From contig NC_022124.1 of assembly GCF_000163055.2 (NCBI RefSeq), positions 248,001 to 312,000 on the forward strand: 64,000 nt of DNA, read 5' to 3'. The position numbers and the translations under genes are program-made. The DNA is from Prevotella sp. oral taxon 299 str. F0039 (lineage in GTDB: Bacteria; Bacteroidota; Bacteroidia; Bacteroidales; Bacteroidaceae). Shown one piece after another: positions 1-14,635 of the stretch. The number at the start of each line of letters is the position of its first letter. Position 1 is the first letter of the stretch. The notes beneath the pieces are model-generated. The model saw nothing but the letters and a program-made list of their open reading frames with translations. It was not told where the DNA came from and ran no database searches.

Positions 1-918
1 CTCGTTCAGCCAATCGGTAAAGCCGTTTCGGATCTCGTCGATTTTGGCGTTTGCCATCTGTATGGCTTCGGTGTCCCGTACTTTGACTTCCTTTTCTCCG
101 ACCATGATTTTCTTGGTAATGTCGGGCGTCGTATTCAGCAGGGTGTGCTTCATCAGGGCAATGCCGTCGTAGCGACGATGTTGCCCCCGTACACAGAACC
201 TGTCCCAGATATTGGCATTGTGCATCCGTGCCTCCACAGAGTATTCGTCCGCACTTGAATTGTAGCGTATCATCACCTCCGTGTCGAAGAGGTACGAGGC
301 ATAGTCTGAGTAGAGATTTACGGGAATCCATCGCTCCCCGAAGTTGAAATCCAAGTCCACGAAGGGTATCGGTTCGGGAATGGCATCTTTCAGTGCCTGC
401 AAGGAGGCTTGCGCCCTTGTGTCTTCCGGATGCTCCAAAAGGTATTGTCCGATACGCTCCGAAGCGGCAACCACATTGCCCGATATGAACTTCTCGGCGA
501 TTTCATATTCTCCCTCCAAAGGATTGTAGTAAATCCTGTCGTGCAGCTCGAAGAGCATCTCTTCTTCGGAGATGTCAGGAAGCAAAGAGAGCATATACTC
601 GATGTCCACCGCTCCTAATTTATTGAGTGAAGCCGAGAGAGCCTCTTGGGCATTGCCCCCCTCTGTCACTTCGTGCAGGCTGAAAGAAACGGGCTGATGG
701 AAAATATCGGCTTTGAGCGTTTCTTTATCCACCTTCCGTTCCAAGAAGAGGATTTCCCTGCACATATCCCTACCAGCCAAAGCCAGACGCTTCCGCCACA
801 AAGGAGAGAGCCTGCGAGTGCAAGTACCACCCAAATTGATATTTTGTATCTCAGTTTCATCTTGTCTGATTTTTTTGATTTTATGCGGATTCCAGAGGTG
901 AGGAAGTTGAGTTTCCAT
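1..918 (-). pseudogene. 5'-truncated conjugative-transposon helicase/methylase gene
   Basis: The minus strand is open from about 990 to the left edge; an ATG sits at 918. From about 765 leftward the translation (GRDM, then KADIFHQPVSFSLHEVTE, then RIYYNPLEGEYEIAEKF, then NANIWDRFCVRGQ) matches, from memory, the middle of the roughly 1,900-residue N6-methylase/SNF2 helicase proteins carried by Bacteroidales conjugative transposons. In those proteins about 900 residues, including the methylase domain, precede this point. Here only about 50 unrecognised residues precede it, so the 5' half appears missing. GC content is visibly higher than in the core genes to the right. The gene continues beyond the window, so I cannot tell whether the rest is intact. 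I infer a remnant of an integrated conjugative element. Confidence 0.7.
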
Positions 919-1106
919 TTTAATATTCTCTGTCCTCGTGTTTCCGACATTTTTTTTATGCGTCTTTCCGTCGGGTCGGTCGTTTTCGTTTCAGGGGCGT
1001 AAAAAGGTAGGGCTTAGGACAAACAAGGTTTTACGGCGAGAATACTACCTGCAATGAAATGGAAGTGTGGAGATTGTCGTCTAAACGGCTTGCCGCCCCG
1101 ACCTTT

Positions 1107-1136
1107 TTTGTCCGTGAAAGCCCGGAACTACCTTTG
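1107..1136 (+). promoter_or_regulatory. Bacteroidota-type promoter in transposon DNA
   Basis: TTTG at 1107-1110 and TACCTTTG at 1129-1136 with 18 bases between them fit the Bacteroidota -33/-7 pattern. No convincing gene follows; only a 19-codon ORF (1162-1221) lies downstream. It probably once drove a transposon gene that is no longer present. From 1137 to 1261 I see nothing else. Confidence 0.45.
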
Positions 1137-1261
1137 CCGCTGACAACGAACAACCGATCCCGATGCGAATACTAGAATGGAACGTGGAGAGGAACACCGC
1201 AGAGGACAGAGCGGAAAAATGAAAGGCAGCCTGCACAAGAAGGACTGCCATAATCATGAGG

Positions 1262-1493
1262 AATAAGACGAAAAGAATGAAAACTATTGTCTGAACAGAC
1301 AACTATTAGAAAAGAAAAACGGAGAAAGTTTCGTCTTTCTCCGTAGATAGTATTACCTTTGCAATAGGTTATTCGAGTTATGCAAAGCGTTGTGTGTCAT
1401 TGCAGAAGATAGGTCGCTAAATCATTACCTGCTGAAAATCATAACTCATAAGGCTGTTCATAGCCAATTACTTAGACCTAAATGATAGATTTT
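1262..1493. repeat. Left copy of ~230-bp direct repeat flanking the defence island
   Basis: This segment is repeated in the same orientation at 8679-8907. The 186-base core (1308-1493) differs from 8722-8907 at about 12 positions by eye; the outer 50 bases are more diverged. The repeat contains a 10-bp perfect hairpin, a TACCTTTG box (1354-1361) and the last codons of the IS1595-type transposase, so it is probably the 3' end of an insertion sequence plus downstream DNA. Confidence 0.85.
1305..1344 (-). terminator. Rho-independent terminator downstream of IS1595 transposase
   Basis: ACGGAGAAAG (1319-1328) pairs perfectly with CTTTCTCCGT (1335-1344) across a six-base loop. On the minus strand the hairpin is followed by TTTTTCTTTTCT, so it terminates leftward transcription, about 115 bases past the transposase stop. 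Confidence 0.7.
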
Positions 1494-2285
1494 GTCTATA
1501 ATTTGATTGAATTTTGCCAATGGCGTTTTCTTTCGGGTATTGTATGTGAACTCAAACTCCGCACAGTATTTGGATAGATGCTCCTTACTTGGTCTGTGGT
1601 ATGTTCCCATTATTGACCGCTTCAAATGTGACCATGCACCCTCAATAGTATTTGTGTGTATCTTACCACGAACATATTCTTTACGCCCATGATTTACTAC
1701 ATCGTGTACATAGTCCGAGCATAGCTTAGTGTATGCCCACCATTCATCGCTGTTTATACGGGTTCCTTTCTTAACTCGTTTGTGGATAATTGGCTCTAAG
1801 GTTTTACGCTTAGCATTTGGTACAGGTGTAATGGATAAACGTCCACCACGCCGCCGTCCACCAACATACGTTTCATCAAGTTCTACTGTACCACGTAGCT
1901 GGTTATCGGAGTTACGATGTTCCAGCATATAACGAACCTTGTGTAATAAATACCAAGCGCTCTTTTGCGTGACACCGATAGTCTTGGACAACTCAATAGA
2001 GCTGATACCTTTCTTAGACAATGAAATCAGATAGAAAGTAAGAAACCATTTCTGTAACGGAATGTTTGAGTTCTCATAGATAGTACTCGTTGTTACTTTG
2101 AATTACTTTTTACAATGTGCGCACTTGAAAGTTTTCCCGTTTTCATAACGGTATATTTTCTGTGCGTTTCCACAATGCGGACAAGTTGGAGTATTACCCC
2201 ATCTTCGTTTCTCTAAATATTTTCTACAAGAATCCTCATCAGGAAACTGCTTAAAGAAATAGAATAAATTAGCGTTATTACTCAT
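1458..2285 (-). pseudogene. Degenerate IS1595-family transposase
   Basis: The N-terminal part (2103-2285) is a zinc ribbon, CPHCG then CAHC. It stops at a TAA codon where the family has CAA (Gln) in a CKKQF context; the same frame then continues without interruption as FKVTTSTIYENSNIPLQKWF into the ORF at 1458-2021. That ORF contains ELDETYVGGRRRGGR, NSDEWWAY, NHGRKEYVRG and HTNTIEGAWSHLKR, typical of IS1595 (ISPna2-like) DDE transposases. Compared with family members I recall, about 35 residues between YVGGRRRGGR and the KTLEPII segment are missing in frame. A point nonsense mutation plus an internal deletion indicate a dead element. The terminal inverted repeats could not be fixed by eye. 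Confidence 0.8.
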
Positions 2286-2742
2286 ATTTAACCGAATTTT
2301 ACTTGAAGTTACGAAAAAACGGGTAAATATCCAAGTGTTTGGTTAACAATTTCTTATGTTATTTTTATAGCGATAATCACTAAAATCAAAGCCGTATAAA
2401 GGTCTTATGAATGTCTGCAAATATGACCTTTGGTGTAGAAGCATCCACTCACAGACCTAAATACAGACTAATGTCCTACGCACGGAGAACATCCGAAAGC
2501 AACATTTACTTCAAACGGCATCACTGTTTCTTGTTGCTGCGAGAAGTTCCGAAAAGACACATTTGGGTTATAATAGTATATAATTACGCTTTATAAAAAC
2601 GAATTCTAAACATTACAAAGATAAACCATTGAATACACAAAATAAATGATATTGTTTTGAGTCTATTCAAAAATTTGCATTGAATTGTGTTGAGCGAAGA
2701 TTTTTCCTTAGCAAATAAATTGAGTTAAAATGCATCAACTCC
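2286..2742. other. Non-coding stretch between IS relic and defence operon
   Basis: No convincing gene is visible in this 457-base stretch. The part from about 2410 to 2530 is richer in GC than its surroundings and may be a leftover of mobile DNA; the remainder is AT-rich and leads into the operon promoter. Confidence 0.5.
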
Positions 2743-2772
2743 TTGGTTATAAAAAATAATTCATTAACTTTG
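2743..2772 (+). promoter_or_regulatory. Promoter of the HTH/GHKL/HNH/methylase operon
   Basis: TTGG at 2743-2746 and TAACTTTG at 2765-2772 (18 bases apart) match the Bacteroidota -33/-7 pattern. The predicted start of transcription is about 25-30 bases upstream of the ATG at 2805, so this promoter should serve the entire five-gene operon. Confidence 0.65.
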
Positions 2773-2804
2773 CATTGTAGTTTAATTTATTAGGATTTAC
2801 CGCT

Positions 2805-3002
2805 ATGAACAAAGACCTGAATAGGATTAAGATCGTCTTGGTAGAGAAGCACCTGACAAGCAAGTGGCTTGCGGAAAAGTTAGGCAAGTCAACATGTACT
2901 GTGAGCAAGTGGTGCTCTCAAAAGTCGCAGCCAGATTTGCAAAACATGAATCAGATTGCAACCCTGCTTGATGTGAAATTGAGCGAGCTTATTGTGGATT
3001 AA
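2805..3002 (+). CDS. XRE-family HTH regulator
   Basis: A 65-residue protein that is essentially a single Cro/C1-type helix-turn-helix. The pattern LTSKWLAEKLGKSTCTVSKWCSQKSQPDLQNMNQIATLLDV (residues about 17-58) shows the two helices, turn and recognition helix. It is the first gene of a tight plus-strand operon, 34 bases before the GHKL ATPase gene. Small XRE proteins at the head of restriction-modification operons commonly control methylase/nuclease timing, like C proteins; that role here is inference from position. The start is supported by the promoter 33 bases upstream and the absence of any longer frame. Confidence 0.8.
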   Translation: MNKDLNRIKIVLVEKHLTSKWLAEKLGKSTCTVSKWCSQKSQPDLQNMNQIATLLDVKLSELIVD

Positions 3003-3036
3003 CAGATATCTTTTCAAGTTGATTTAACGCATAACG

Positions 3037-5340
3037 ATGAATATTCCATTCGCAATATCGGCAAGAACAGCACATCTTATTGGCATGGAGAACTTTGCCA
3101 ATGCAGAAGGGGCTATTGTAGAACTGGTGAAGAATGCTTATGATGCGGACGCAGATACTTGCGTGGTAGTGGCAGATGTCCGAGAAAATAAGGCAGAATC
3201 CAAGCTGTTCATAATTGATAATGGTTCAGGAATGACTGATGAAATAATCATTAAGCATTGGATGACGATTGGTACAGATGATAAGCTTCTCAATACCCGT
3301 TCTTCAAATAAAAAGCGTGTTAAAAGTGGAGCAAAAGGTATTGGACGATTTGCCTTGAACAGATTAGGAGCTTCTGCAGAGATGTTGTCTTTTGCTTGTA
3401 GCGAGTTAGACAAAGGTTATGTATGGAATGTTGATTGGAAAAAATTTGACCAAGCACGTGTACTTTCGGATGTAGAGGCAAATTTAGATGTAATTACTAC
3501 TGACTTTTTGGTAGGTAGGCTTAATGAATATGGAATTGACAAATTGCCAATATATGACAAATTGATCTCTAAAACTTTTCATGGGACAATTCTTTGTATA
3601 TCCCATCTGAATGACGATTGGAATGACCATGCGCTGAATGAACTATTAAAGAACCTTGAAATGCTCATTCCTGCTGAATTGCAGACATCTTTTGGGTTGT
3701 ATCTGTATAAGATGCATGACTTACAGTGGAGTGGGAAGGTCAACCCGATGGAATATGAGGATTATGACTATAAAATTTCTGCTTGGTATGAAGGAGGACG
3801 CGAAATACAGATCAAGATTGAGAGAAATGAATTGAATTTGTCTAAACTCGAAACTCTTTACAGCAAAGTATTTCTGCGAGATGCGATGAAAGTGACACCG
3901 TATCGTTTAGAGGATTTCCGGAAAAGAGAAGTTTCTCAGACTATTCAAATAAACAACAAGGTTGATGCTGATTTGCTAGAACAAGTCGGCAAATTTGGAT
4001 TTACGTTCTTTTTTCTAAAAAATACATTAAAAGACGACCGAGACAAGGATGGAAATCAAAAATATCCATACAATTTATTTGACGAATCAGTCCGTACTCA
4101 TTGGCTCGACAGGTTTGGCGGCGTGCGTATCTATCGCGATGAATTCCGTGTCCGTCCGTACGGAGAGAACGGGGATGACTGGTTAGGTTTAGGTCGCAGG
4201 CAGGCAAAGAGTCCTGGTGGGGCTGGTCAAAAGATGGGTGGCTATAGAATCCGTCCAAATCAGATTGCTGGTATCGTTAAGATTTCGAGACTGACAAATG
4301 CGGCTTTCGAGGATAAGTCAAGTCGAGAGGGTATTCAGGAAAACGAGGCTTTCGCATTGTTCAAAAATCTGTTATTGCAGATAATCTCAGTTTTTGAACT
4401 TGATCGTAATACCGTCATGTACAATCTGTCGGAACTATATAAAGAAGAACATCCACAGACAACACGTGCAAAGGAGATTGCGTATAAAGCTCTTGACTCT
4501 AAAGTTGAAAATCTATCTAAAGAAGCGGAAGATTTAAAGATTCTTGCTGCAGATTATAAATCTCTGGAAACAGAACTCAGAGACAAGGAGGCAGAGCTCT
4601 CAATGCTTCGCGGACTGGCGAGCCTGGGAATATCTTCTGCAACATTTACTCATGAGCTCCGAAGCGTGATGATTCGCCTTTTACCGAGAAACGAATTACT
4701 TAAGAATATTCTTCTGCAATATCTGCCAGAAAACCAGTTTGAAGGAATGCGATTTGACAATCCTTATCAGGAGTTAAGAAATATGAAAATAGAAGACGAG
4801 AGGCTTTATAATTGGCTTCTTTATTCTTTAAATTCAATACGTCGAAGTAAAAGGGACTGGGTAGATATTGACTTGTCGAACTACCTTACTTTATTTATCG
4901 AATCTTGGAAACCTATTCTATTAAGAAAATCGATACATATAGACCTCCAAATAACAAACATGGATGGCATATTACTCAAAGGATTCGAAATGGATTTGGA
5001 TAGTATATTCAACAATTATGTAACAAATTCCATATCCGCATTCCTTAATTCAAATAAAAAGGAAAAAAAGATTTCAGTGAGTGTGAGCAATGACCATGGA
5101 TATGCTATAATAGACTTTATTGATAATGGTATTGGGCTTTCTCAAGAATATAGGAATAACCCTGATGTTATTTTTAATGCTTTTGAGACATCTACAGTGG
5201 ACAATCAGAATAATAAGATTGGTACTGGCATGGGATTGTTTATTGTGAAAGGCATTATCAGCAAATATCCAGATGCTTTGATTGCATTGCTGCCTGTTGA
5301 GACAGGGTTTGGAATAAGAACAATATTTAAAATCAAATGA
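3037..5340 (+). CDS. Dual-GHKL protein: Hsp90/MutL-like ATPase fused to histidine-kinase-like module
   Basis: This 767-residue soluble protein has no signal peptide or membrane segment. The N-terminus is a GHKL ATPase of the Hsp90/MutL/MORC type: N-box VELVKNAYDADA (E29, N33, D36), DNGSGM (61-66) and GAKGIGR (98-104). A middle region (about 150-470) is unassigned. A charged, probably coiled-coil stretch (about 475-525) leads to a histidine-kinase-like H-box, TFTHELRS, with H539. A second GHKL domain follows: N-box around NNYVTNS (659-665), DNGIG (696-700) and GTGMGLFIVK (729-738). The next gene overlaps by four bases (ATGA) and encodes a receiver protein, so phosphotransfer from H539 is a natural proposal. 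GHKL ATPases beside nucleases and methylases have, as I recall, been reported in predicted restriction systems; this fusion's function is not known to me. Kinase activity is inference. Confidence 0.85.
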   Translation: MNIPFAISARTAHLIGMENFANAEGAIVELVKNAYDADADTCVVVADVRENKAESKLFIIDNGSGMTDEIIIKHWMTIGTDDKLLNTRSSNKKRVKSGAKGIGRFALNRLGASAEMLSFACSELDKGYVWNVDWKKFDQARVLSDVEANLDVITTDFLVGRLNEYGIDKLPIYDKLISKTFHGTILCISHLNDDWNDHALNELLKNLEMLIPAELQTSFGLYLYKMHDLQWSGKVNPMEYEDYDYKISAWYEGGREIQIKIERNELNLSKLETLYSKVFLRDAMKVTPYRLEDFRKREVSQTIQINNKVDADLLEQVGKFGFTFFFLKNTLKDDRDKDGNQKYPYNLFDESVRTHWLDRFGGVRIYRDEFRVRPYGENGDDWLGLGRRQAKSPGGAGQKMGGYRIRPNQIAGIVKISRLTNAAFEDKSSREGIQENEAFALFKNLLLQIISVFELDRNTVMYNLSELYKEEHPQTTRAKEIAYKALDSKVENLSKEAEDLKILAADYKSLETELRDKEAELSMLRGLASLGISSATFTHELRSVMIRLLPRNELLKNILLQYLPENQFEGMRFDNPYQELRNMKIEDERLYNWLLYSLNSIRRSKRDWVDIDLSNYLTLFIESWKPILLRKSIHIDLQITNMDGILLKGFEMDLDSIFNNYVTNSISAFLNSNKKEKKISVSVSNDHGYAIIDFIDNGIGLSQEYRNNPDVIFNAFETSTVDNQNNKIGTGMGLFIVKGIISKYPDALIALLPVETGFGIRTIFKIK

Positions 5341-5975
5341 TTATGAGCGATAAAATTAGATTAGTCTATTTAGATGAGGAAGAAGGGTGGCAATCAATAG
5401 CCCATTCTCGACTGAAGAATGACTTTCAACTTCACATACCTCAATATATGCCTGATAATATAGAGGACATTTGGCGGGATGTATGCGAATTCGATGCTCA
5501 GGCTGTATTAATTGATTATCGCTTGAATAATACCGGCAAAGTATCGTATACTGGCGATGACGTTATACGTGAACTTCATCGACACAATAAACATCTACCA
5601 ATGTTTATTATAACATCGTATGAGGACAATGCACTGATAGAGTGTAAAGAAGCCCAAATTATCCGTGGTAAAGAATTGTTTGGCGACGCAAAGCAATACG
5701 AAAAGCTAAAAAGCATTATTACGGCAAATGTAAATAACTATAACAGCCGTAAAGCATCGGCTGAATATATAATCAAAAAGTTCCAAGATAAAGTCTCCAA
5801 GGGGGAGAACTTGACAAATGAAGAGTCTGCAACTAAATTTGAGACTGAACTTTACTTGTCTGAGTTAGATTTGGACAATAGCGTCCGCTCTGATTTGATT
5901 ACAAGCACATCAAATGATACATTGGAGGAATTATTGAAAGTCGCACAAAGTATTGTTAATTTGCACAAGAAGTAA
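5337..5975 (+). CDS. Stand-alone receiver (REC)-like protein
   Basis: 212 residues. The first about 120 read as a response-regulator receiver: acidic pocket D13-E14-E15 after strand 1 (IRLVYL), phospho-acceptor candidate D60 in AVLIDYRLN, T93/S94 in FIITSYED, and K112 in the last strand region. All canonical catalytic positions therefore seem to be present. The C-terminal 90 residues are helical and charged, with no DNA-binding or enzymatic motif I recognise. It overlaps the kinase-like gene by 4 bases and lies 3 bases before the HNH gene, so it is translationally tied to both. I infer that it relays the state of the kinase-like protein to the nuclease or methylase. A second ATG at 5343 is an equally possible start. 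Confidence 0.75.
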   Translation: MIMSDKIRLVYLDEEEGWQSIAHSRLKNDFQLHIPQYMPDNIEDIWRDVCEFDAQAVLIDYRLNNTGKVSYTGDDVIRELHRHNKHLPMFIITSYEDNALIECKEAQIIRGKELFGDAKQYEKLKSIITANVNNYNSRKASAEYIIKKFQDKVSKGENLTNEESATKFETELYLSELDLDNSVRSDLITSTSNDTLEELLKVAQSIVNLHKK

Positions 5976-5978
5976 GCT

Positions 5979-6563
5979 ATGATAGATTTCAGAAAAACAA
6001 CCCCCATTCGTCGGACATCAGTGCCGGAATATAAGACTCATAACGAATACAAGTCATTGTTGTGCGAAGATTTCCATCAACGCTGCGGTTATTGCGGAGA
6101 TCATGAATTCTTCAGGGACACTTATTACGAAGTTGACCACTTTGTCCCCCAAAAACTCCTTGTAAACATATCTCCTACAGAGTATTCTAATTTAGTTTAT
6201 TCATGCCGTTCTTGCAATAATTCTAAACGCGCAAAGTGGCCAACGAAGGATGAGAATATGCCGAATGATGGAAAGCAAGGTTTTATAGACCCTTGCGATG
6301 CTTCTTATGCAGAGCAATTTGAAAGACTGACAGATGGATCTATTCACTCTATAACTGATCTTGGTGATTGGATGTGGTCTGCACTTAACTTCGGAAATCC
6401 TGCTCATCGTGTGAAGTGGAGGTTGGAAGAAGTCAAAATTCTGCTCAAAGAGCTAGATGAAGTGATAATTGATTCGCTAGAGGAACTGAAAAATAAAGAC
6501 GAACTAAACAGATTATACCGCAAGTTAGAAGAACAGCTTAGGGGGAAACCAAACTTTTCCTAA
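5979..6563 (+). CDS. HNH endonuclease
   Basis: 194 residues with a clear zinc-supported HNH fold: CGYCG (C36, C39), EVDHFVP (D53, H54), YSNLVYSCRSCNNSKRAKWP (N71, C76, C79, N80, K83). The two CxxC knuckles bracket the beta-beta-alpha metal site, as in the McrA-like/TIGR02646-like HNH proteins common in defence loci. The C-terminal half (about 110-194) is helical and without recognised motif. Gaps are 3 bases to the receiver gene before and 3 bases to the methylase gene after. It is the only evident nuclease in the operon and is therefore the candidate DNA-cutting effector (inference). Confidence 0.85.
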   Translation: MIDFRKTTPIRRTSVPEYKTHNEYKSLLCEDFHQRCGYCGDHEFFRDTYYEVDHFVPQKLLVNISPTEYSNLVYSCRSCNNSKRAKWPTKDENMPNDGKQGFIDPCDASYAEQFERLTDGSIHSITDLGDWMWSALNFGNPAHRVKWRLEEVKILLKELDEVIIDSLEELKNKDELNRLYRKLEEQLRGKPNFS

Positions 6564-6566
6564 TTA

Positions 6567-8333
6567 ATGAACTCTCAAATCTTCACATATCTCAAACGAA
6601 AACGACTTACAGATACACGGACAGTAAATCGCCTTTTCGTGTCTTCTTTTGTATTGCTTAGTGATTTGATAATTAAGAATAATTATGTCATTAAGAGTTT
6701 ACTCATAGACAAAGAAGATGAAGATTTTGACTTGTTGCAGGAGTTTGTGTCCAAGATTCATCACTTCCATCCTGCACCGATGACAATAGAAGACATGATT
6801 AGCCTTTTCGAATTTGTCATTTCGCCGGCCGATCGCATTGTGACTGGAGCCGTCTATACACCTAAATACGTAAGGGAGAACATCATTGAGACTTGCTTAA
6901 AAATACCCAATGAACATTTACAACATATTCGTGTGGCAGATATTGCTTGTGGCTGTGGTGGTTTCTTGATGAATGTTGCATTATTCTTGCACAACAACAC
7001 AGGGAGGTCATTTTATGATATCTACCAAGAATCTGTATATGGAATTGATATCCAAGAGTATTCTGTGGAAAGAACAAAAATTTTACTTTCACTTTTAGCT
7101 TTGCTTCATGGAGAAGATTTGGACTTTGATTTCAATATTCTTCAAGCAAATACATTAAATTTTAACACTACAGAATGGAACCAGGACTACACACATTTTG
7201 ATGTTATTGTCGGCAATCCACCGTATGTCTGTTCGCGCAATGTAGATGCTACCACAAAGGAAAAGATGTTGCAATATGAAGTTTGCCTGTCAGGACATTC
7301 TGATTTGTATATTCCTTTTTTCCAAATAGCAACTGAAATGCTGAATGACGGTGGAAGATTGGGATTCATCACAATGAATAGTTTTATTCGTTCGGTCAAT
7401 GGCAGAGCTGTGCGGAATTATTTTTCTCGTGGCATTCATGATATTTCAATATTGGATTTTCGTGGCTACCAGGTTTTCCAAAAGAAAAGTACATATACAT
7501 GTCTTTTCTTCCTCACAAAGAATCAAGCGTCAGATACACTACATTACGCCGTTAATTTGAATGGAGATTTAAGTGCAACGCCAGAATATAATAATATCTT
7601 ATATAATCAACTTGATAACAAAAAAGGATGGAGACTAAATGATTTTGAAGCAGTACGCCAAATAGAGTCCATAGGAATTCCTATTGGCGAATATTGTCAT
7701 TTCCGCCACGGTATAGCAACACTCAGCAACAAGACTTACATATTCAAGCCTGTCGCGGAGGATGACAACTATTATTATTTGGAATCTAAAGATAAACGCT
7801 TCCCTATAGAAAAGGCAATATGCAGAAATGTCGTCAACTCCAACAAACTCAACTCAGAAGTTTCTTTTGAAAGCATTATCGAGAAACTGATTTTCCCGTA
7901 CTTCATTAACGAAGATCGAGCCACAATTATTGAGGAGTCAGTCATGAAGACCACTTTCCCTTATACTTATGCTTACCTCTCTTCCCAGCGCAAGCAACTT
8001 GCCGAGCGTGACAAAGGCAAGACAGACAAGTATCCCACATGGTATGCATACGGCAGAACTCAGTCGCTCATTATGCCAAGATATAAATTATTCTTCCCGA
8101 AGTTCGCAAACAAACCTCTTCATTGTGTTTTGAGAGGCGATGCAGACCTGTTGCTATACAATGGCATTGCATTTGTTAGCGACGACCTTGAAAAACTGCA
8201 AGTCCTGAAAAGCATTCTTGATAGTAATGTCTTTTGGAGCTATCTTGTCAAGAATGCAAAACCATACTCAACAGGATATTATTCACTGAGTGGAGTTGAT
8301 ATTAAAAATTTTTGTATTCCCTCTGTGAAATAG
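6567..8333 (+). CDS. N6-adenine-type DNA methyltransferase (TaqI/Eco57I-like)
   Basis: 588 residues. The motifs are in the gamma-class order: GAVYTP (94-99, motif X), ADIACGCGGFL (124-134, motif I, AdoMet loop), GIDI (159-162) and NPPY (217-220, catalytic motif IV), then SDLYIPFFQIA and GRLGFI. The region after about 350 resembles a TaqI-like target-recognition domain (inference from position and length). There is no fused nuclease motif at the N-terminus, so unlike type IIG enzymes cleavage would have to come from the HNH partner. It is the last gene of the operon, 3 bases behind the HNH gene; its end faces the convergent antitoxin-like gene. Expected product is m6A in host DNA. Confidence 0.88.
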   Translation: MNSQIFTYLKRKRLTDTRTVNRLFVSSFVLLSDLIIKNNYVIKSLLIDKEDEDFDLLQEFVSKIHHFHPAPMTIEDMISLFEFVISPADRIVTGAVYTPKYVRENIIETCLKIPNEHLQHIRVADIACGCGGFLMNVALFLHNNTGRSFYDIYQESVYGIDIQEYSVERTKILLSLLALLHGEDLDFDFNILQANTLNFNTTEWNQDYTHFDVIVGNPPYVCSRNVDATTKEKMLQYEVCLSGHSDLYIPFFQIATEMLNDGGRLGFITMNSFIRSVNGRAVRNYFSRGIHDISILDFRGYQVFQKKSTYTCLFFLTKNQASDTLHYAVNLNGDLSATPEYNNILYNQLDNKKGWRLNDFEAVRQIESIGIPIGEYCHFRHGIATLSNKTYIFKPVAEDDNYYYLESKDKRFPIEKAICRNVVNSNKLNSEVSFESIIEKLIFPYFINEDRATIIEESVMKTTFPYTYAYLSSQRKQLAERDKGKTDKYPTWYAYGRTQSLIMPRYKLFFPKFANKPLHCVLRGDADLLLYNGIAFVSDDLEKLQVLKSILDSNVFWSYLVKNAKPYSTGYYSLSGVDIKNFCIPSVK

Positions 8334-8409
8334 GAGAAGGGGGAATATGCCATAGACTAAAAGCTCTAAGAGATCTCATCCTTTCGATTCTTTGGAGATA
8401 TCCTATTTT

Positions 8410-8634
8410 TCATACGTCATAACCTTCTCGTTTCATCGGCACAAGACCACACTCCGAGCCGAAGAGTTCGAAGACTTTATTGACCTTATCAAGGCGTAGG
8501 GTGGTCTTGCCTTGCTCTAATTCTTGCACGAAACGTAGTCCCACTCCTGCTTTCTCGGAGAGGTCTACTTGTGTCAGTTTATATTTCTTGCGCATCTCCT
8601 TTACGTATTGCGCTATGATTGTCCTCGCGACCAT
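8410..8634 (-). CDS. Orphan HipB/Y4mF-type HTH antitoxin-like protein
   Basis: A 74-residue XRE domain protein: QYVKEMRKKYKLTQVDLSEKAGVGLRFVQELEQGKTTLRLDKVNKVFELFG, followed by a short tail. It closely resembles the Y4mF/HipB antitoxins that sit immediately upstream of a HipA-type kinase toxin in Bacteroidota. Here the downstream minus-strand DNA has only a 15-codon ORF overlapping the stop by ATGA, then the convergent methylase gene, so the toxin gene seems to have been lost. It is either a solitary regulator or a relic of a toxin-antitoxin pair. Confidence 0.75.
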   Translation of the reverse strand: MVARTIIAQYVKEMRKKYKLTQVDLSEKAGVGLRFVQELEQGKTTLRLDKVNKVFELFGSECGLVPMKREGYDV

Positions 8635-8678
8635 TTTATATCAATTGCTTGAAGTACCATACCCTCACAACAATGAAC

Positions 8679-8907
8679 AATAAGATGAAAATAGAATCAG
8701 CTGTCTGAATAGAGAGCCGTCAGAAAAGAAAAACGGAGAAAGTTTCGTCTTTCTCCGTAGATAGTATTACCTTTGCAATAGGTTATTCGAATTATGCAAA
8801 GCGTTGTATATCATTGCAGAAGATAGGTCGCTAAATCATTACCTACTGCATTTCATAACTCATTCGACTGTTGATAGCCAATTACTTAGACCTAAATAAT
8901 AGATTTT
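8679..8907. repeat. Right copy of the island-flanking direct repeat
   Basis: The counterpart of 1262-1493 in the same orientation, core 8722-8907. On the minus strand it still encodes the tail KIYYLGLSNWL of the IS1595 transposase (KIYHLGLSNWL in the left copy) before diverging, showing that a second copy of the element's end once lay here. It carries the same hairpin and TACCTTTG box (8768-8775). Confidence 0.85.
8725..8758 (-). terminator. Terminator hairpin in right repeat copy
   Basis: The same 10-bp stem as in the left copy (8733-8742 with 8749-8758), followed on the minus strand by a T-rich run. In this location no transposase frame feeds into it. Confidence 0.6.
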
Positions 8908-8944
8908 AGGATAAAAGAGGTTCGATTTATTTTAAACGAGCAAG

Positions 8945-9018
8945 TACTTTTGTAAAAAAAAATAGAGAATAGTAAGGATACATAGTTTAGAATTAGAGCT
9001 AACTATGTATCCTTTTTT
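8945..9018 (+). terminator. Strong rho-independent terminator preceded by a -7-like box
   Basis: AAGGATACATAGTT (8974-8987) pairs with AACTATGTATCCTT (9001-9014), followed by TTTTTT. A TACTTTTG box at 8945-8952 lies just upstream, which would give a transcript of only about 60 bases. The hairpin insulates the SemiSWEET gene from the island. I cannot tell a genuine small RNA from a chance box. Confidence 0.65.
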
Positions 9019-9084
9019 ATTGATTCAAATTATTATTTGCTATTATTTTGATAAATAAGGTAATAAAAATCAGGTGATTTGTTG

Positions 9085-9120
9085 TTTGTTTGGGTTGAAT
9101 ACACTTACTTTTGTAAGTGT
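9085..9120 (+). promoter_or_regulatory. SemiSWEET promoter with palindrome over the -7 box
   Basis: TACTTTTG at 9106-9113, with TTTG at 9085-9088 (17 bases apart). The -7 box sits inside a palindrome, ACACTTAC-TTTT-GTAAGTGT (9101-9120), with 8-bp perfect arms. Its position over the core promoter suggests a repressor operator, or it may be fortuitous. The predicted leader is about 100 bases. Confidence 0.55.
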
Positions 9121-9225
9121 AATAATGATGTGTTTATTTGGATATTAACTTTTGATATATAAGAAGTAGAAACGAAAATCATTATTAAAAAAGAGAAAAG
9201 AATAACAAAAGTATTAATGATGTAA

Positions 9226-9498
9226 ATGTTTAAGAAGATGACACAAGAAAAGTTTTTCGGTTTATTAGGTTGGGTCGGAATGGTGACTGCAGTACTTATG
9301 TATGTTTTTTACTTTCCACAAATACAGCAAAATCTTGCAGGAAACAAAGGAAGTTTTATTCAACCATTTATGGCTGGTGTTAACTGTACGCTTTGGGTAG
9401 CTTATGGTTTGTTCAAAAAAGAACGTGATTTACCTGTTGCTATTGCCAATTTTCCAGGTGTAGTATTTGGCTTTATTGCTGCATTTACGGCTCTATAA
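9226..9498 (+). CDS. SemiSWEET family sugar transporter
   Basis: 90 residues, three hydrophobic segments (about 14-33, 43-63, 70-90) and the PQ-loop motif YFPQIQQN (29-36), the hallmark of bacterial SemiSWEETs, which act as homodimers in the inner membrane and move sugars down their gradient. N53 and W57 in the second helix correspond to the substrate-site residues of the family. Monocistronic: an island terminator precedes it and a weak hairpin with T-run (about 9520-9557) follows. The substrate cannot be read from the sequence. An alternative start at 9238 (MTQEKF) is possible. Confidence 0.85.
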   Translation: MFKKMTQEKFFGLLGWVGMVTAVLMYVFYFPQIQQNLAGNKGSFIQPFMAGVNCTLWVAYGLFKKERDLPVAIANFPGVVFGFIAAFTAL

Positions 9499-9727
9499 AG
9501 ACAGAATAAATAAGGTATAATAATATAAGATCATTCGAGTTAGTACTTGATTGGTCTTTTTTTATGTCTAAAATAAAGTTTTTTGTGTTTGAATAAGTCT
9601 TTCGTCTTAAATAGAAGAGAAATCGAATTAGATAGAAGTGAAGGTGGGAAAGTAAGTTAAAACTTCACTTATAAATAGAAGAAAGCCCGTTTATAAAACT
9701 TCTTCATAATGAGATGAAATGCAAACA

Positions 9728-9806
9728 CATTGCTTTTGCATCTTGATAGTAGTGCTTTTATCTTGTAATAGCAATGCTTTTAGAAAGAAAAAGCATTGTT
9801 ATTTAT
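9728..9806. repeat. 22-base-period repeat cluster A
   Basis: Units begin at 9728, 9750, 9772 and 9794, exactly 22 bases apart, each opening with a variant of CATTGCTTTT. Unit junctions form palindromes near AAAAGCATTGCTTTT. It lies in the 442-base gap between converging genes; the rest of that gap (9558-9727) shows nothing I recognise. Confidence 0.8.
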
Positions 9807-9850
9807 TAAGATTTAGATAAAGACGGAGGTCGAAAGAGAGTGGGGGAACA

Positions 9851-9890
9851 ATAAAAAACGACCAGCTTTGCAGTGCAAATACTGGTCGTT
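9851..9890 (-). terminator. Terminator of the YtxH/holin-like operon
   Basis: AACGACCAG (9857-9865) pairs with CTGGTCGTT (9882-9890). On the minus strand it is followed by a run of Ts, 50 bases after the stop of the last operon gene. Confidence 0.75.
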
Positions 9891-9940
9891 ATCTTTTAAG
9901 TAGGATGAAATAGGTTGTTAAAACTTATTCGACAGCATCT

Positions 9941-10183
9941 TTATTTCTTGAATTTTCGGTATAATTTCCAACCAAGAATAACGCCATCTATTACGTTTGT
10001 TCCTAACGATATTGCGCTTTGAATACGTTGTGTTGGTGTTTTGGGGCCCGACTTTGCAGGCTTAAACAAACTATTCCACAAACGCTTTATTTCCTTTTCG
10101 TCAGTTTCTATCTGCTTGTTGAGCGCATCTTTGTATCCTTGTAGATCTCTTAATGAATTGTATTTCTTTATTCCTGTGTCCAT
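9941..10183 (-). CDS. Small conserved hypothetical protein of YtxH/holin-like operon
   Basis: 80 residues, charged and without signal peptide: a helical, possibly coiled N-terminal half (about 10-45) and a short moderately hydrophobic stretch (SAISLGTNVIDGVILGWKLY, about 57-76) before a basic end. It is the third gene of a minus-strand operon behind a YtxH protein and a holin-like membrane protein, 19 bases after the latter. I do not recognise the family; similar small proteins follow these two genes in other Bacteroidota, as I recall. A role in the envelope is inferred from its neighbours only. Confidence 0.6.
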   Translation of the reverse strand: MDTGIKKYNSLRDLQGYKDALNKQIETDEKEIKRLWNSLFKPAKSGPKTPTQRIQSAISLGTNVIDGVILGWKLYRKFKK

Positions 10184-10202
10184 TTTTATTGCATTTAAGA
10201 TT

Positions 10203-10553
10203 TTATTTGTCGATTAATAAATCTGCTAAAATCCTTACTAAAGGACGCTCTATCCATCTTCTTCTATTAAGAATACATAATAGGAATATAACTATATACA
10301 CACAAGTAACAGTTAAGAAGGCAAAACTTAAGCCGATAAATGTTGAAAGTGCATAGGCTATTGTGAATGAAAGATAGATAAGAACAAGCACTAAGATAAA
10401 TGAAAGGGTAAAGAACATTGCCATGATAGTGAATAATTTCACTATTTTTTCAGTGATGTCAATACGCCATAAATCACTTTTTGTGGCAATATATCGCTTT
10501 AGCACCTCAACAAGTTGTGCTATTGTTTCTATGTTTTGATCGTTAGAGAACAT
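10203..10553 (-). CDS. Phage-holin-family-like (DUF1469) inner-membrane protein
   Basis: 116 residues. A charged N-terminus (about 1-33) is followed by two long hydrophobic segments (about 39-70 and 73-98) and a basic tail, RRRWIERPLVRILADLL. This is the layout of the DUF1469/holin-X family, small membrane proteins often next to YtxH proteins and linked to envelope stress; they are not proven holins. It lies 7 bases after the YtxH gene and 19 before the small third gene, so the three are co-transcribed. Confidence 0.75.
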   Translation of the reverse strand: MFSNDQNIETIAQLVEVLKRYIATKSDLWRIDITEKIVKLFTIMAMFFTLSFILVLVLIYLSFTIAYALSTFIGLSFAFLTVTCVYIVIFLLCILNRRRWIERPLVRILADLLIDK

Positions 10554-10560
10554 GCTTTAA

Positions 10561-10782
10561 TTATCCTATAAGCTCTTCAGGAGCCGCATCTTTGATGTCG
10601 TCTACCAAGTCTTCTACTTGTTTGCGTGTAAGTTTAATGTTGTGTTTGTCTAAAAAGTCTTCTACTGCTCCAGTGAGTTTAGAGCGAGTATCTTTTCCTT
10701 TTTCAGGGGCAACTAACAAACCTAGTGTTGTACCTGCAATGGCTCCGCCAAGGAAAGCACATAAATAACCTAATGTCTTCAT
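10561..10782 (-). CDS. YtxH domain protein
   Basis: 73 residues: a glycine-rich hydrophobic N-terminus (LGYLCAFLGGAIAGTTLGLLVAP, about 3-25) ending in the LLVAPEKGKDTR motif typical of YtxH proteins, then an amphipathic tail. It is probably anchored in the inner membrane by its N-terminus. First gene of the three-gene operon; the -7 box is about 50 bases upstream. YtxH proteins are often stress-inducible in other bacteria; no direct regulatory evidence here. Confidence 0.8.
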   Translation of the reverse strand: MKTLGYLCAFLGGAIAGTTLGLLVAPEKGKDTRSKLTGAVEDFLDKHNIKLTRKQVEDLVDDIKDAAPEELIG

Positions 10783-10832
10783 TTCTTTTTTCTGTTTAAT
10801 TTTATTTTTTTTTCTTTGTTATACTGATAAGG

Positions 10833-10840
10833 CAAAGATA
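10833..10840 (-). promoter_or_regulatory. -7 box of YtxH operon
   Basis: On the minus strand TATCTTTG, matching TAnnTTTG, about 50 bases before the ATG. No clear -33 element is visible. Confidence 0.5.
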
Positions 10841-10957
10841 CAAAAATAAAGTGTTTGTTGTCCTTGTAAATATAAGTTTTTTACGAAAAACATAGCGATT
10901 TATTGTTGTTTAACAAACTTTATGTAGCTATCATTCAGTGTTTTATTATATATTTTG

Positions 10958-10965
10958 TACTTTCG
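10958..10965 (+). promoter_or_regulatory. -7-like box of SPOR lipoprotein gene
   Basis: TACTTTCG, one base off the TAnnTTTG pattern, 46 bases before the ATG. Confidence 0.4.
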
Positions 10966-11011
10966 CAAGAGAGTAAAACGACATTATTAATTTAAATGAG
11001 ATAAAAAGATT

Positions 11012-11500
11012 ATGAAGAAGAACATTCTATTTTGCGCTGGATTATGCGCTGTTTTAGCTCTTTCAAGTTGTAAATCAAGTGAAAGCGCATATAAAAAAGC
11101 TTACGAAAAGGCAAAAGCGCAAGAGCAAGCTCAAAATAATAGTTCATATAATAACAATACTCCAGTGGTAACACCTGTAGTAGAACAACCTGCAACACAA
11201 ACAACTGTAGTTACAAATACCGACAATGTTCCTGTAAGAACAGAGCGTGTAACCGTGGTTAATGGTGCTGGTTTAAAGAATTTTAGCGTAGTTGTAGGCT
11301 CTTTCTCATTGAAAGCAAATGCAGAAGGCTTGTTAAATAGACTCCGTTCTTCAGGTTATGATGCTCAATTAGGCTTCAATCAAGATCGTAATATGTATCG
11401 TGTTATCTCTTCAACATTCGATAATAAAGCTGATGCAGTACGTTCAAGAGACCAATTCCGTGCAACTTATCCAGATGCATGGTTATTGTTTAAGCAATAA
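11012..11500 (+). CDS. SPOR-domain lipoprotein
   Basis: 162 residues. Signal peptide with lipobox LALSSC (Cys about residue 20), a low-complexity linker rich in Q/N/T/V (about 35-80), and a C-terminal SPOR domain (about 88-162: FSVVVGSFSLKANAEGLLNRL, then YRVISSTFDNKADAVRSRDQF). SPOR domains bind denuded peptidoglycan at division septa, so a periplasmic cell-wall or division role is expected. It stands alone between the divergent YtxH operon and a terminator hairpin. Confidence 0.88.
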   Translation: MKKNILFCAGLCAVLALSSCKSSESAYKKAYEKAKAQEQAQNNSSYNNNTPVVTPVVEQPATQTTVVTNTDNVPVRTERVTVVNGAGLKNFSVVVGSFSLKANAEGLLNRLRSSGYDAQLGFNQDRNMYRVISSTFDNKADAVRSRDQFRATYPDAWLLFKQ

Positions 11501-11527
11501 GAAATAAGTAGTTTAAAGAATATATTG

Positions 11528-11571
11528 GCGGTTTGGCGTGTTGCTTTGTGATGTGTCGAACCGCTCTTTTT
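11528..11571 (+). terminator. Terminator after SPOR lipoprotein
   Basis: GCGGTTTG (11528-11535) pairs with CGAACCGC (11557-11564), with one G-U pair, followed by CTTTTTA. Confidence 0.6.
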
Positions 11572-11646
11572 ACTTATTATGTCGAAGTTCTTTAATACTT
11601 ATATTTCAAATTACGACATATCACAGCATAATTAAAAAGAAATACA

Positions 11647-12060
11647 TTGTCACGAATACTCGCAATAGACTATGGTCAGAAACGAACTGGCTTGGCAGTT
11701 ACCGACACTTTGCAGCTTATTGCTAATGGATTAGATACCATTCCCACGCATACGCTGTATGAGTTTTTATGTGCTTACATCGAAAAAGAGCCTGTTGAAA
11801 GAATAATAATAGGTCTTCCTCGACAAACAAACGGTCTTCCTAGCGAAAATATGAAGCGTATTGAGCCCTTTGTTGCACGTTGGAAAAAGCATCAACCCAA
11901 TGTTCCTATCGAGTATTACGATGAGCGTTTTACCTCAGTATTGGCGCATCGTGCAATGATTGATGGCGGTTTGAAGAAGAAAGCAAGGCAAGATAAAGCT
12001 CTTGTAGATAAGATTAGTGCAACAATTATATTGCAAGACTATCTAGAACACCGCCGATAA
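11647..12060 (+). CDS. ruvX: RuvX/YqgF Holliday-junction resolvase-like nuclease
   Basis: 137 residues beginning with the RNase H-like strand ILAIDYGQKRTGLAV (catalytic Asp in AIDYG), then IIIGLP, and a final YYDERFTSVLAHR motif; length and motifs fit YqgF/RuvX. The family processes Holliday junctions and 16S rRNA precursors. No ATG lies at the conserved N-terminus; the only reasonable start is TTG at 11647, giving MSRILAIDYG. Followed 21 bases later by def, the usual Bacteroidota order. Confidence 0.88.
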   Translation: MSRILAIDYGQKRTGLAVTDTLQLIANGLDTIPTHTLYEFLCAYIEKEPVERIIIGLPRQTNGLPSENMKRIEPFVARWKKHQPNVPIEYYDERFTSVLAHRAMIDGGLKKKARQDKALVDKISATIILQDYLEHRR

Positions 12061-12081
12061 ACAAATTAAAACAAATAGAAT

Positions 12082-12645
12082 ATGATATTACCCATATATG
12101 TTTATGGACAACCAGTGCTAAGAAAAGTTGCCCAAGACATCACTCCTGATTACCCTGAGTTAAAAGAATTGATAGCGAATATGTTTGAAACTATGGATAA
12201 TGCAGATGGCATTGGTCTTGCAGCTCCACAGATAGGACGTAGCATTCGCTTATCAGTTATCGACTTAGATGTGCTTAGTGAATACTATCCTGAATACAAA
12301 GGGTTCCGCAAAGCCTTTATCAATCCACACATTTTAGAGGTAGATGAAGAGAGTGAAATGCTGACTTCGGAAGAGGGTTGCTTGTCTATTCCAGGTATAC
12401 ACGAGAATGTTGACCGACGAACAAGAATACATGTGAAGTGGATGGACGAAGAGTTTACCGAGCACGATGAATGGATTGAGGGTTATCTTGCACGTGTAAT
12501 GCAACACGAGTTCGACCATCTTGATGGAGTTTTGTTCACAGATAGAATTTCACCTTTACGTAAACAGCTTGTAAAAAACAAGCTTACAGCAATGAGTAAA
12601 GGTAAATATCGTGCCGCATATCGCACCAAAGCAGCACAACGATAA
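12082..12645 (+). CDS. def: Peptide deformylase
   Basis: 187 residues with all three signature motifs: [10 protein letters not shown] (43-52), EEGCLSIPG (98-105; metal ligand C100) and QHEFDHLDG (141-149; ligands H142 and H146, catalytic E143). It removes the N-formyl group from nascent proteins at the ribosome. In an operon with ruvX upstream (21 bases) and the TPR protein downstream (10 bases). Confidence 0.97.
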
Positions 12646-12655
12646 ATAGCTTTCA

Positions 12656-14635
12656 ATGGCAATACGCAAAGTCTTCTTCCTTATTTTATTGTGTATTACA
12701 ACCTTAAAAACCTATGCACAATTCAATATTAATCGTCTAATAACAAGTGGAGAGATAGCTCTTCACTACGAAGACTATGTGCCTGCCATTCAATATTTCA
12801 ACAGAGTTATAGCCCTTAAGCCTCATCTTTACGTTCCATGGTATGATAGAGCCATCGCAAAATACTATCTAGACGATAATGTGGGGGCTGAAAACGACAT
12901 CACAGAAGCCATCAAATTGAATCCATATATCGATGGAATGTACGACTTAAGAGCGATAACTCGAATTCGACAAGCCAAGTATAAAGAAGCAATTGCCGAC
13001 TATAATAAAGCCATTTCGATCGACAATAGAAACAAAAACTATTGGATGAATCGTGCAATATGCCTTGTAAACGATAAACAATATGATGAGGCTCTATTAC
13101 AAACTGATTCTATTTCGAAGCGATGGCCAAAGGTTGCAACCACTTATTCGTTAAAAGCTGAGATCTATCTCAATAAGAAAGACACTCTAAAAGCCGAGAA
13201 GTGGCTCGATAAGAGTATTGAACTCGATGCTTTCGACGCTTCTAGTTGGCTTACAAAAGCCTATATCTCGTTATCTAGAAGGCAGTGGAAAGAGGCAGAT
13301 AAAGCCCTTTCTAAGTCGATACATCTCAAGCCTCAGAATGCCACTTTATATGTTAATCGAGCCCTTGCACGCATCAATATTAATAATCTTCGTGGTGCAA
13401 TGGACGATTATGATAAGGCACTTGAGTTACAACCCGATAACTTCTTGGCGCATTACAACCGAGGATTGCTTCGCATGCAACTAGGAGATGACAACCGAGC
13501 GATACTCGATTTTGATTATGTTATAAGTATAGAACCCAACAATATTCTTGCAATTTTCAACCGAGCAGTACTCTTAGACAAGACTGGAGATTTGAGAAAG
13601 GCCATTAAAGACTATACCACTGTAATTAATCAGTTCCCTAATTTCTGGACAGGACTTGCTTATCGTGCTCGTTGTTATCGTAGACTTGGTATGACAAACC
13701 TTGCAGAACTCGACGAATTTAAGATTTTCAAGGCTCAGATGAACAAGCATTTGGGAATTCAACAGCGATGGAGTTCAGCGAAACTAAAGGCTACTCGTAA
13801 GAGAAATGAAATCGACTTAGAAAAGTATAACCAACTTGTTGTGGAAGACGAGAATACTGTTGAACGAGAATACGATAGTGAATATCGTGGAAAGGTGCAA
13901 AACAAGAAGACCGATTTGGCATTTATGCCGATGTTCGAGATATCTTATCTGCCTTATAATAATGGTGTAAAGGCATTCACTCCTTTTGTTCTTGAGTTAG
14001 AACGGCTCAATAGTCCTCATGAAAATGCGCAACGAATGCAACTCACCTGCAATGCTATGGCATTAACAGAGAAGAGCTCGAAGACTTATTTTGCATTGGT
14101 AGATAACTTGTCTTTACAAATAGATAGCACCCGAAACGAGCGCAGTTTGTTGCCAAAATTGTTCCAAAGAGCCATTGCACACAGCGTTCTTCAAAACCCT
14201 GAAGCAGCTATTAATGACCTAACAACCATCGTTCAGGCAGATAGTTTAAATTGGTTAGCTTATTGGCAGTTGGCAGTTTGCCAAACAAACCTTAACGGAT
14301 TTAATGCCACAAAGGGTGTAGACACACGTTTACAAGCCTCCAAAGCACTATCATTCTTCGATAAAGCGGTGGACATTCAACCTAAAAATGCGTTCTTGTT
14401 ATACGACAGAGCCAACCTATATGTGTTGCTAAAAGAGAACAAAAAGGCGATAGACGATTATACAAAAGCCATTAATTTAGAGCCAGCTCTTGCCGAAGCC
14501 TATTATAATAGAGGTCTACTTTACTTGCAAGAAGGCAACATTCAAGATGCCACAACAAGTTTAAGTAAGGCAGGAGAACTAGGACTTTACAAAGCATATA
14601 GCGTGTTGAAACATTCGAAAGAGAAGAAAAAGTAA
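12656..14635 (+). CDS. Periplasmic/surface TPR-repeat protein
   Basis: 659 residues. A signal peptide (residues 1-21, ending KTYAQ) is followed by tandem tetratricopeptide repeats covering about 30-360 and again about 480-655, each recognisable by W/Y-G/A-A and P patterns (for example YYNRGLLYLQEGNIQDATTSL near the end). A non-repeat linker (about 365-480) separates the two blocks. TPR arrays are protein-protein scaffolds; the partner is unknown. It follows def by 10 bases, an arrangement conserved in Bacteroidota as I recall. Confidence 0.88.
   Translation: MAIRKVFFLILLCITTLKTYAQFNINRLITSGEIALHYEDYVPAIQYFNRVIALKPHLYVPWYDRAIAKYYLDDNVGAENDITEAIKLNPYIDGMYDLRAITRIRQAKYKEAIADYNKAISIDNRNKNYWMNRAICLVNDKQYDEALLQTDSISKRWPKVATTYSLKAEIYLNKKDTLKAEKWLDKSIELDAFDASSWLTKAYISLSRRQWKEADKALSKSIHLKPQNATLYVNRALARININNLRGAMDDYDKALELQPDNFLAHYNRGLLRMQLGDDNRAILDFDYVISIEPNNILAIFNRAVLLDKTGDLRKAIKDYTTVINQFPNFWTGLAYRARCYRRLGMTNLAELDEFKIFKAQMNKHLGIQQRWSSAKLKATRKRNEIDLEKYNQLVVEDENTVEREYDSEYRGKVQNKKTDLAFMPMFEISYLPYNNGVKAFTPFVLELERLNSPHENAQRMQLTCNAMALTEKSSKTYFALVDNLSLQIDSTRNERSLLPKLFQRAIAHSVLQNPEAAINDLTTIVQADSLNWLAYWQLAVCQTNLNGFNATKGVDTRLQASKALSFFDKAVDIQPKNAFLLYDRANLYVLLKENKKAIDDYTKAINLEPALAEAYYNRGLLYLQEGNIQDATTSLSKAGELGLYKAYSVLKHSKEKKK

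Follow-up and report, generated by a model that had tools for sequence, protein, structure and literature searches.

An operon in the stretch of DNA analysed here (64,000 nucleotides, hereafter the window) encodes a kinase and a receiver protein directly beside an HNH nuclease and an N6-adenine DNA methylase (Table 1), which raises the question of what a phosphorelay would be doing inside a restriction-like operon. We lean, with modest confidence, towards reading it as a mobile restriction-modification-like defence cassette whose nuclease is gated by an intracellular His-Asp phosphorelay. What speaks for this reading, as judged from sequences and structural models, is the set of parts, their intact catalytic residues, their linkage, the co-variation of the kinase-receiver-HNH trio and the exchange of the methylase. 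The arrangement suggests that cutting happens only after the kinase-receiver switch has sensed something about DNA.

Table 1. Features of the operon and its surroundings, in window coordinates
Feature	Position	Strand	Basis or remark
IS1595/ISXO2-type transposase spread over two ORFs (187 aa, carrying PF12762; 60 aa)	1458-2285	-	adjoins the left side of the cassette
Cassette shared with Bacteroides caecigallinarum (L053, L054), ~5.65 kb, 87% DNA identity	2708..8362	+	blastn
Possible Bacteroidota-type promoter, TTG-N19-TAnnTTTG	2743..2772	+	pattern scan
XRE/Cro-type HTH protein, 65 aa, optional regulator	2805..3002	+	PF13443 34.9 bits, PF01381 33.5 bits
Kinase, 767 aa	3037..5340	+	Pfam HATPase_c_3 and HATPase_c
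H539 codon, predicted phospho-accepting His of the H-box	4651..4653	+	H in 89/90 rows, 1 gap
Receiver protein, long helical C-terminus	5337..5975 (start 5337; 5343 by relatives)	+	
Phospho-acceptor Asp codon	5514..5516	+	D in 89/90 rows, 1 gap
HNH nuclease, 194 aa, related to PtuB/TIGR02646 HNH proteins	5979..6563	+	PF01844 38.7 bits
H54 codon, predicted catalytic His of the HNH nuclease	6138..6140	+	residue conservation
N6-adenine DNA methylase, 588 aa, gamma-type order	6567..8333	+	PF07669 96.3 bits, PF02384 74.8 bits

The earlier note had described a five-gene operon with gaps of 34, -4, 3 and 3 bases, and this was borne out: all five ORFs are open at the coordinates of Table 1, each with an ATG start and a single stop. 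The positions it gave for H539, D60 (counted from ATG 5337), H54 and the methylase NPPY motif (residues 217-220) also held. The possible promoter resembles the Bacteroidota consensus; the scan of the window gave five matches against 2.0 expected and 5 of 100 shuffles reached five, a weak signal by itself. By eye, a similar promoter-like motif is present at the equivalent place upstream of the operon in two relatives (L054 and L055). A scan for sigma-70-type promoters was uninformative, with 25 matches against 21.4 expected. The genome that holds the window comprises 2.48 Mb in two contigs, and its nearest DNA and proteins come from Bacteroides/Prevotella-type Bacteroidota. The transposase to the left of the cassette is probably broken. 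Directly to the right lies a gene for a 74-aa XRE/HipB-like HTH protein (8410-8634, minus strand) that points toward the cassette; no partner for it was identified.

We collected 89 related loci by alignment to the kinase only, and the HNH and receiver profiles were built from the genes co-located with it. Four loci came from 395 phylum-wide genomes (five of which, own genome included, match the kinase below 1e-100), 80 were the best of 446 relatives on GTDB contigs and five lay on viral contigs. The tallies that follow thereby cover relatives at ~34-92% identity, with one viral locus, L137, at 28%; they include several near-copies and one record present twice (L033 and L078), leaving 88 distinct kinases in 90 rows. 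A receiver gene follows the kinase in 89 of 89 loci, immediately so in 88, the kinase of the other (L101) being two ORFs. The HNH gene is present in 86 loci, immediately adjacent in 85, and the three loci that have none (L071, L086 and L092) stop at a contig edge. A methylase-sized ORF lies downstream of the HNH gene in 80 loci. An Eco57I-type methylase is found upstream in L132, L136 and L137, and in L069 one is placed upstream by a local profile; the methylase of L116 is split, and the contig of L120 ends 143 bases past the HNH gene. An N6/N4-type methylase is adjacent in all 85 loci with room for one. Gene order and strand of the four genes are constant across the 89 loci, and spacing is at most 60 bases between kinase and receiver in 87 of 89, between receiver and HNH in 84 of 86 and between HNH and methylase in 79 of the 80 downstream cases. 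The earlier note would have been refuted by homologues that failed to co-occur, and they co-occur across phyla. The grouping is not due to chance, and the four-gene core is real and widespread. Some copies are fragmentary (the HNH of L070, the receiver of L089, the kinase of L101 and the methylase of L116); these come from draft assemblies and are possibly assembly errors.

The XRE gene was also counted as part of the set in the earlier note. It is indeed present in the window operon, but an XRE-family HTH gene lies upstream of the core in only 19 of the 89 loci, and L055, a relative at 90-92% identity, lacks the HTH gene and keeps the four-gene core. We rejected it as a core component on these grounds. 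The HTH gene is a loose part of the operon, and the conserved core consists of kinase, receiver, HNH nuclease and methylase.

The core is also mobile, coherent and conserved across several phyla. The best 80 of the 446 relatives were distributed over Bacteroidota (64), Campylobacterota (4), Bacillota (2) and six further phyla (one each), with four carrying no phylum. The match to L055 by blastn spans 2697-2829 and 3021-8320, the latter at 89.6% identity, and when window positions 1-14000 were compared by blastn with L053, L054 and L055 nothing matched outside the cassette. Among 100 sampled genomes of the same genus, own included, seven had some match to the HNH protein; in the other six, the match was 30-33% identity over 70-112 residues, in other proteins. 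A complete operon is annotated on a Bacteroides finegoldii plasmid, next to genes for an integrase and for a toxin-antitoxin pair of the MqsR type, and another on a Salipiger profundus plasmid, with the four genes annotated as sensor histidine kinase, hypothetical protein, HNH endonuclease and N-6 DNA methylase. No tRNA integration site was found in window positions 1-14000. Near the cassettes of two other loci are genes of a kind seen in defence islands, an AAA_13 protein (PF13166) at 7554-9902 of L130 and an McrB-like protein (PF12102 and AAA_5) at 14044-16794 of L132.

The kinase itself is a fusion of two modules. Its N-terminus (residues ~6-465) is a MORC/MutL/Hsp90-like GHKL plus S5 module of the paraMORC/MORC type, for which Morc3 is the best fold match (VIA-align). 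Its C-terminus (~508-767) is a DHp plus HATPase_c histidine-kinase module, in which H539 aligns with the histidine of the HELR motif in 5uht/2c2a. The H-box histidine and the N, G1 and G2 residues that define a two-component kinase are present, with N660, N664, G698, G729, G731 and G733 each found in 89 of 90 kinase rows and D696 in 88. The weakest part of the structural model is 522-537, just before H539, where pLDDT is below 50. With phmmer, the window kinase alone had no match in the PDB at 1e-3; a 57-member kinase profile finds histidine kinases and MORC3 there. A search of the phage collection gave two weak matches, at 22.9% and 27.1% identity. Iyer and coworkers described in 2008 MORC/paraMORC GHKL plus S5 ATPases that are encoded with methylases and nucleases, HNH nucleases included (PMC2292703). 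The cassette has in common with those operons a GHKL plus S5 ATPase beside a methylase and a nuclease, but it lacks a helicase and adds the fused histidine-kinase module and an encoded receiver; no mention of a receiver was found in the text examined.

Similar to the kinase, the receiver protein retains the residues expected of its class, namely the acidic pair, the phospho-acceptor Asp, the Thr and the Lys. Depending on which ATG is taken as the start, the phospho-acceptor is D60 (5337), D59 (5340) or D58 (5343), and the start of close relatives corresponds to ATG 5343. Among the 90 rows, D12 is present in 86, E13 in 84, D59 in 89, T92 in 88 and K111 in 86; D12 is replaced by E in three, and K111 is replaced in two and missing in two. 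Since Pfam Response_reg scores 21.3 bits on the window receiver, below its curated cut-off of 30.2, it is the conserved residues and the predicted fold that identify the protein as a receiver. Collectively, the residues and models support well a His-Asp relay from kinase to receiver. The two-component-like parts proposed in the earlier note are thus in place, with the kinase and receiver residues intact and nearly invariant.

Such a relay could also belong to an ordinary two-component regulator that sets the expression of a type II HNH-methylase pair, for example by holding the nuclease back when the cassette reaches a new host, with the HNH nuclease constitutive and site-specific. Expression in restriction-modification operons has to be timed, the window and 19 of the 89 loci have an XRE protein upstream, and there is precedent in CapK/CapS, where a GHKL kinase regulates transcription of a defence operon (PMC13373217); a 2021 in silico study likewise suggests that signalling controls restriction-modification directly or indirectly (PMC8011034). 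However, neither a winged HTH nor any other recognised DNA-binding fold is present in the receiver model, whose C-terminal part, hardly covered by the fold search, consists of long helices, and the regulation of one operon needs no MORC-like DNA-clamp module on the kinase. We regard transcriptional control as unlikely.

Within the HNH nuclease, H54, N71 and N80 are each conserved in 86 of 87 rows with one gap, and one cysteine pair is absent from roughly one third of them (C39 and C79 are each present in 58 of 87). The nearest PADLOC match to the protein is the PtuB1 profile (E 1.1e-15), and TIGR02646 matches below its cut-off (E 4.9e-6). The methylase matches adenine methylases in the PDB with a best E of 1.7e-19, and BseCI at 3.6e-13. 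Nuclease and methylase genes lie in one operon, as in type II restriction-modification, and the restriction-like pairing proposed in the earlier note is upheld.

The same nuclease could serve an abortive-infection or addiction device, in which the receiver restrains the HNH protein until infection or damage activates the kinase, the freed nuclease then cuts host DNA and growth stops, and the methylase protects partly or sets the trigger. PtuB and the HNH effectors associated with retrons are among the relatives of the HNH protein. A close mechanistic parallel is VapKSC: single-stranded DNA activates its GHKL kinase, which phosphorylates VapS and so frees the VapC nuclease (PMC13373217). As portrayed there, VapKSC and CapK/CapS have in common with the cassette a GHKL kinase and partner that control a nuclease or defence operon, but they use a STAS partner, phosphoserine and a PIN RNase with no methylase, whereas the cassette has a receiver Asp, an HNH nuclease and a DNA methylase. 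VapKSC is the nearest worked-out mechanistic parallel. A methylase adjacent in every one of the 85 loci that have room is nevertheless beyond what an abortive device needs and is a hallmark of self/non-self marking, so that we consider this explanation improbable.

The gating of a nuclease by the relay should be viewed together with the behaviour of the methylase. A Pfam scan of 77 methylases (76 loci and the window), which left out four near-copies that cluster with scanned ones, assigned 76 to Eco57I and one to N6_N4_Mtase. The methylases form two large classes, of 44 (window included) and 36 members, and one singleton; the second is the one with the M.Eco57I C-terminal domain, PF22837 matching 33 of the 77 members. 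In a quick tree built from 74 kinase rows (7 of 81 dropped; SH-aLRT support, several long branches), the methylase class label changes 10 times, nine of them forced by starred branches, compared with 24.5 in shuffles, which indicates that methylase swaps were repeated though not random. The tree puts the number of methylase exchanges at about nine or more, a rough minimum. Pairwise distances at 70 loci (11 of 81 rows left out) correlate well within the trio (kinase-receiver r 0.88, kinase-HNH 0.75, receiver-HNH 0.78) and poorly with the methylase (kinase 0.21, receiver 0.18, HNH 0.12); even within one methylase class the correlation with the trio is 0.20-0.38. For example, L077 and L074 are 66% identical in the kinase, 53% in the receiver and 62% in the HNH protein, and 19% in the methylase. 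L077 and L078 are 61% identical in the kinase; the methylases of L074 and L078 belong to the other class than that of L077 and are 18-19% identical to it. Co-variation of the trio may reflect co-transfer, for which the methylase acts as an internal control since it moves with the operon but does not follow the other three.

In a classical type II system, exchange of the methylase would be lethal except where both methylases protect the same site or where site selection is not made by the nuclease itself. Within each class, the recognition halves of the cassette methylases show the same degree of conservation as the catalytic halves, and the C-terminal halves are not hypervariable (in class A, pairwise identity across the final 200 residues averages 46-55%). 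Consequently both classes may mark one shared site, and the conserved recognition halves lean towards one fixed site per class. For the same reason, we did not take the weak correlation between kinase and methylase to prove that specificity is set by the methylase. Recognition halves that are not diversified, as they are in many restriction families, point to a possible house-keeping or epigenetic-switch role. This conservation would also suit an epigenetic or repair module in which the MORC/MutL-like kinase reads methylation and controls nicking repair or a replication checkpoint and not phage defence; MutL-type modules do act with methylation-directed nicking (PMC2292703). The patchy and mobile distribution, the plasmid and viral-contig copies and the repeated methylase exchange argue against such a module, which we judge very improbable.

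Returning to the phosphorelay-gated cassette, the mechanism that we infer would run as follows. The methylase would mark the host copies of the target site. The ATP-driven MORC/MutL-like N-terminal clamp of the kinase, as the putative sensor, would engage DNA and read its state, with unmethylated sites, ends or foreign replicating DNA as candidate triggers. Closure of the clamp would pair two C-terminal kinase modules, leading to phosphorylation of H539 and transfer of the phosphate to the receiver Asp (D58/D60). The phospho-receiver would then act on the HNH nuclease rather than on a promoter, activating or releasing it via the long C-terminal helices, and the released nuclease would cut invading DNA, the presumed defence outcome, or host DNA if unrestrained. 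More tentatively, and with somewhat less than even confidence, we propose that restriction is licensed by phosphorylation, the MORC/MutL-like clamp and histidine kinase turning DNA state into a His-Asp signal that switches on the HNH nuclease. The inherited trio is found with methylases of two unrelated classes (once of a third). Under this proposal, a single fixed site would be marked by both classes, or else the target of the nuclease would be dictated by the methylase or clamp and not by recognition of its own. Should the relay gate the nuclease, it would represent two-component signalling at the enzyme level, free of a second messenger, within a restriction system, and it would supply a testable function for the MORC-like ATPases that have stood without one in restriction operons since 2008. 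The receiver Asp and the kinase His offer single-residue handles on phosphotransfer control of restriction, and methylase exchange against a constant trio makes the location of target specificity directly testable.

Several known systems have elements in common with the cassette. Detocs pairs a kinase and a receiver in phage defence, its effector being an ATP-cleaving phosphorylase. The likeness lies in the kinase and receiver pair; no Detocs-type phosphorylase was matched by Pfam among the five cassette proteins at E 1. With Septu PtuB and retron-associated HNH proteins the cassette has the HNH nuclease family in common, and PADLOC and Pfam profiles detected no PtuA-type ATPase gene in the operon such as Septu has. 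HgiDII/BbrUII-type and C5-methylase/GHKL operons likewise place a GHKL ATPase beside a methylase; the HgiDII/BbrUII-type NCBIfam match to kinase residues 11-118 is weak (49.8 bits against a cut-off of 550), and at 16 distant GHKL loci (L037-L052) no neighbour matched the cassette receiver or HNH protein (blastp 1e-3). Distant loci in the range L037-L050 encode shorter dual-GHKL proteins (~700-770 aa) by C5 methylases (confirmed for L037 and L042), and 362-463-aa proteins follow the dual-GHKL gene; four were scanned and had no Pfam match, and these proteins are candidates for unrecognised restriction or receiver proteins.

The closest published arrangement is that of Bellieny-Rabelo (2021), who reported in silico HEF_HK (PF19191)/Response_reg_2 (PF19192) pairs beside restriction-modification genes (PMC8011034). 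In the portion of that paper available, the only experimental data are the expression data that prompted the study, and the neighbours are mainly C5 methylases upstream and Vsr downstream, whereas the present cassette has a constant HNH nuclease and an N6/N4-type methylase. Common to both are a HATPase_c_3, H-box and HATPase_c protein by a receiver-like protein and the restriction-modification neighbourhood; as in an HEF_HK-like pair, kinase and receiver are adjacent, with conserved His and Asp. PF19191 matched 0 of 57 cassette kinases at E 0.01 (33 of 90 were left out owing to the size limit of the scan) and nothing in the genome of the window at E 10. PF19192 matched 0 of 85 receivers at E 0.01 (those of L071, L078, L089 and L092 were left out), and nothing in that genome at E 10; the model passes its cut-off in 4 of 198 genomes and is able to find loci elsewhere. 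A profile comparison of the cassette kinases with four kinases from PF19192 loci gave E 1.8e-46 over 704 columns, so that they are homologous over their length. The receivers were barely alignable (12% probability, 46 columns), and the Response_reg_2 proteins of four Bacteroidota loci are 528-575 aa compared with ~210 for cassette receivers. We did not file the kinase under HEF_HK, given that neither PF19191 nor PF19192 matched. By these profile comparisons, the cassette is a related but separate family from HEF_HK/Response_reg_2, and the principle has already been published in silico.

The earlier note knew of no named system for this gene set. That view stands insofar as no named system in the PADLOC 2023 single-protein profiles fits (only generic type II methylase, PtuB/HNH and REase_II matches were returned), and it needs correction in that a close counterpart had already appeared in 2021 (PMC8011034). 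No description of the cassette gene set was identified in the open-licence PMC literature. HATPase and REC are listed among the domains of eight predicted, unvalidated systems in the legend of DefensePredictor Fig. 6F (PMC13092281), and on the strength of that legend the figure may include a relative of the cassette.

In the four Bacteroidota loci with PF19192 proteins (L153-L156), an unrecognised effector may be contained in the ~350 residues that lie outside the receiver-like part. On the Campylobacter coli plasmid pTet_BCH-10879 (L159), a sensor kinase 28.8% identical is followed by a 331-aa response regulator, with a C5 methylase gene on the opposite strand; conjugative Campylobacter plasmids thus carry, as annotated, a further variant.
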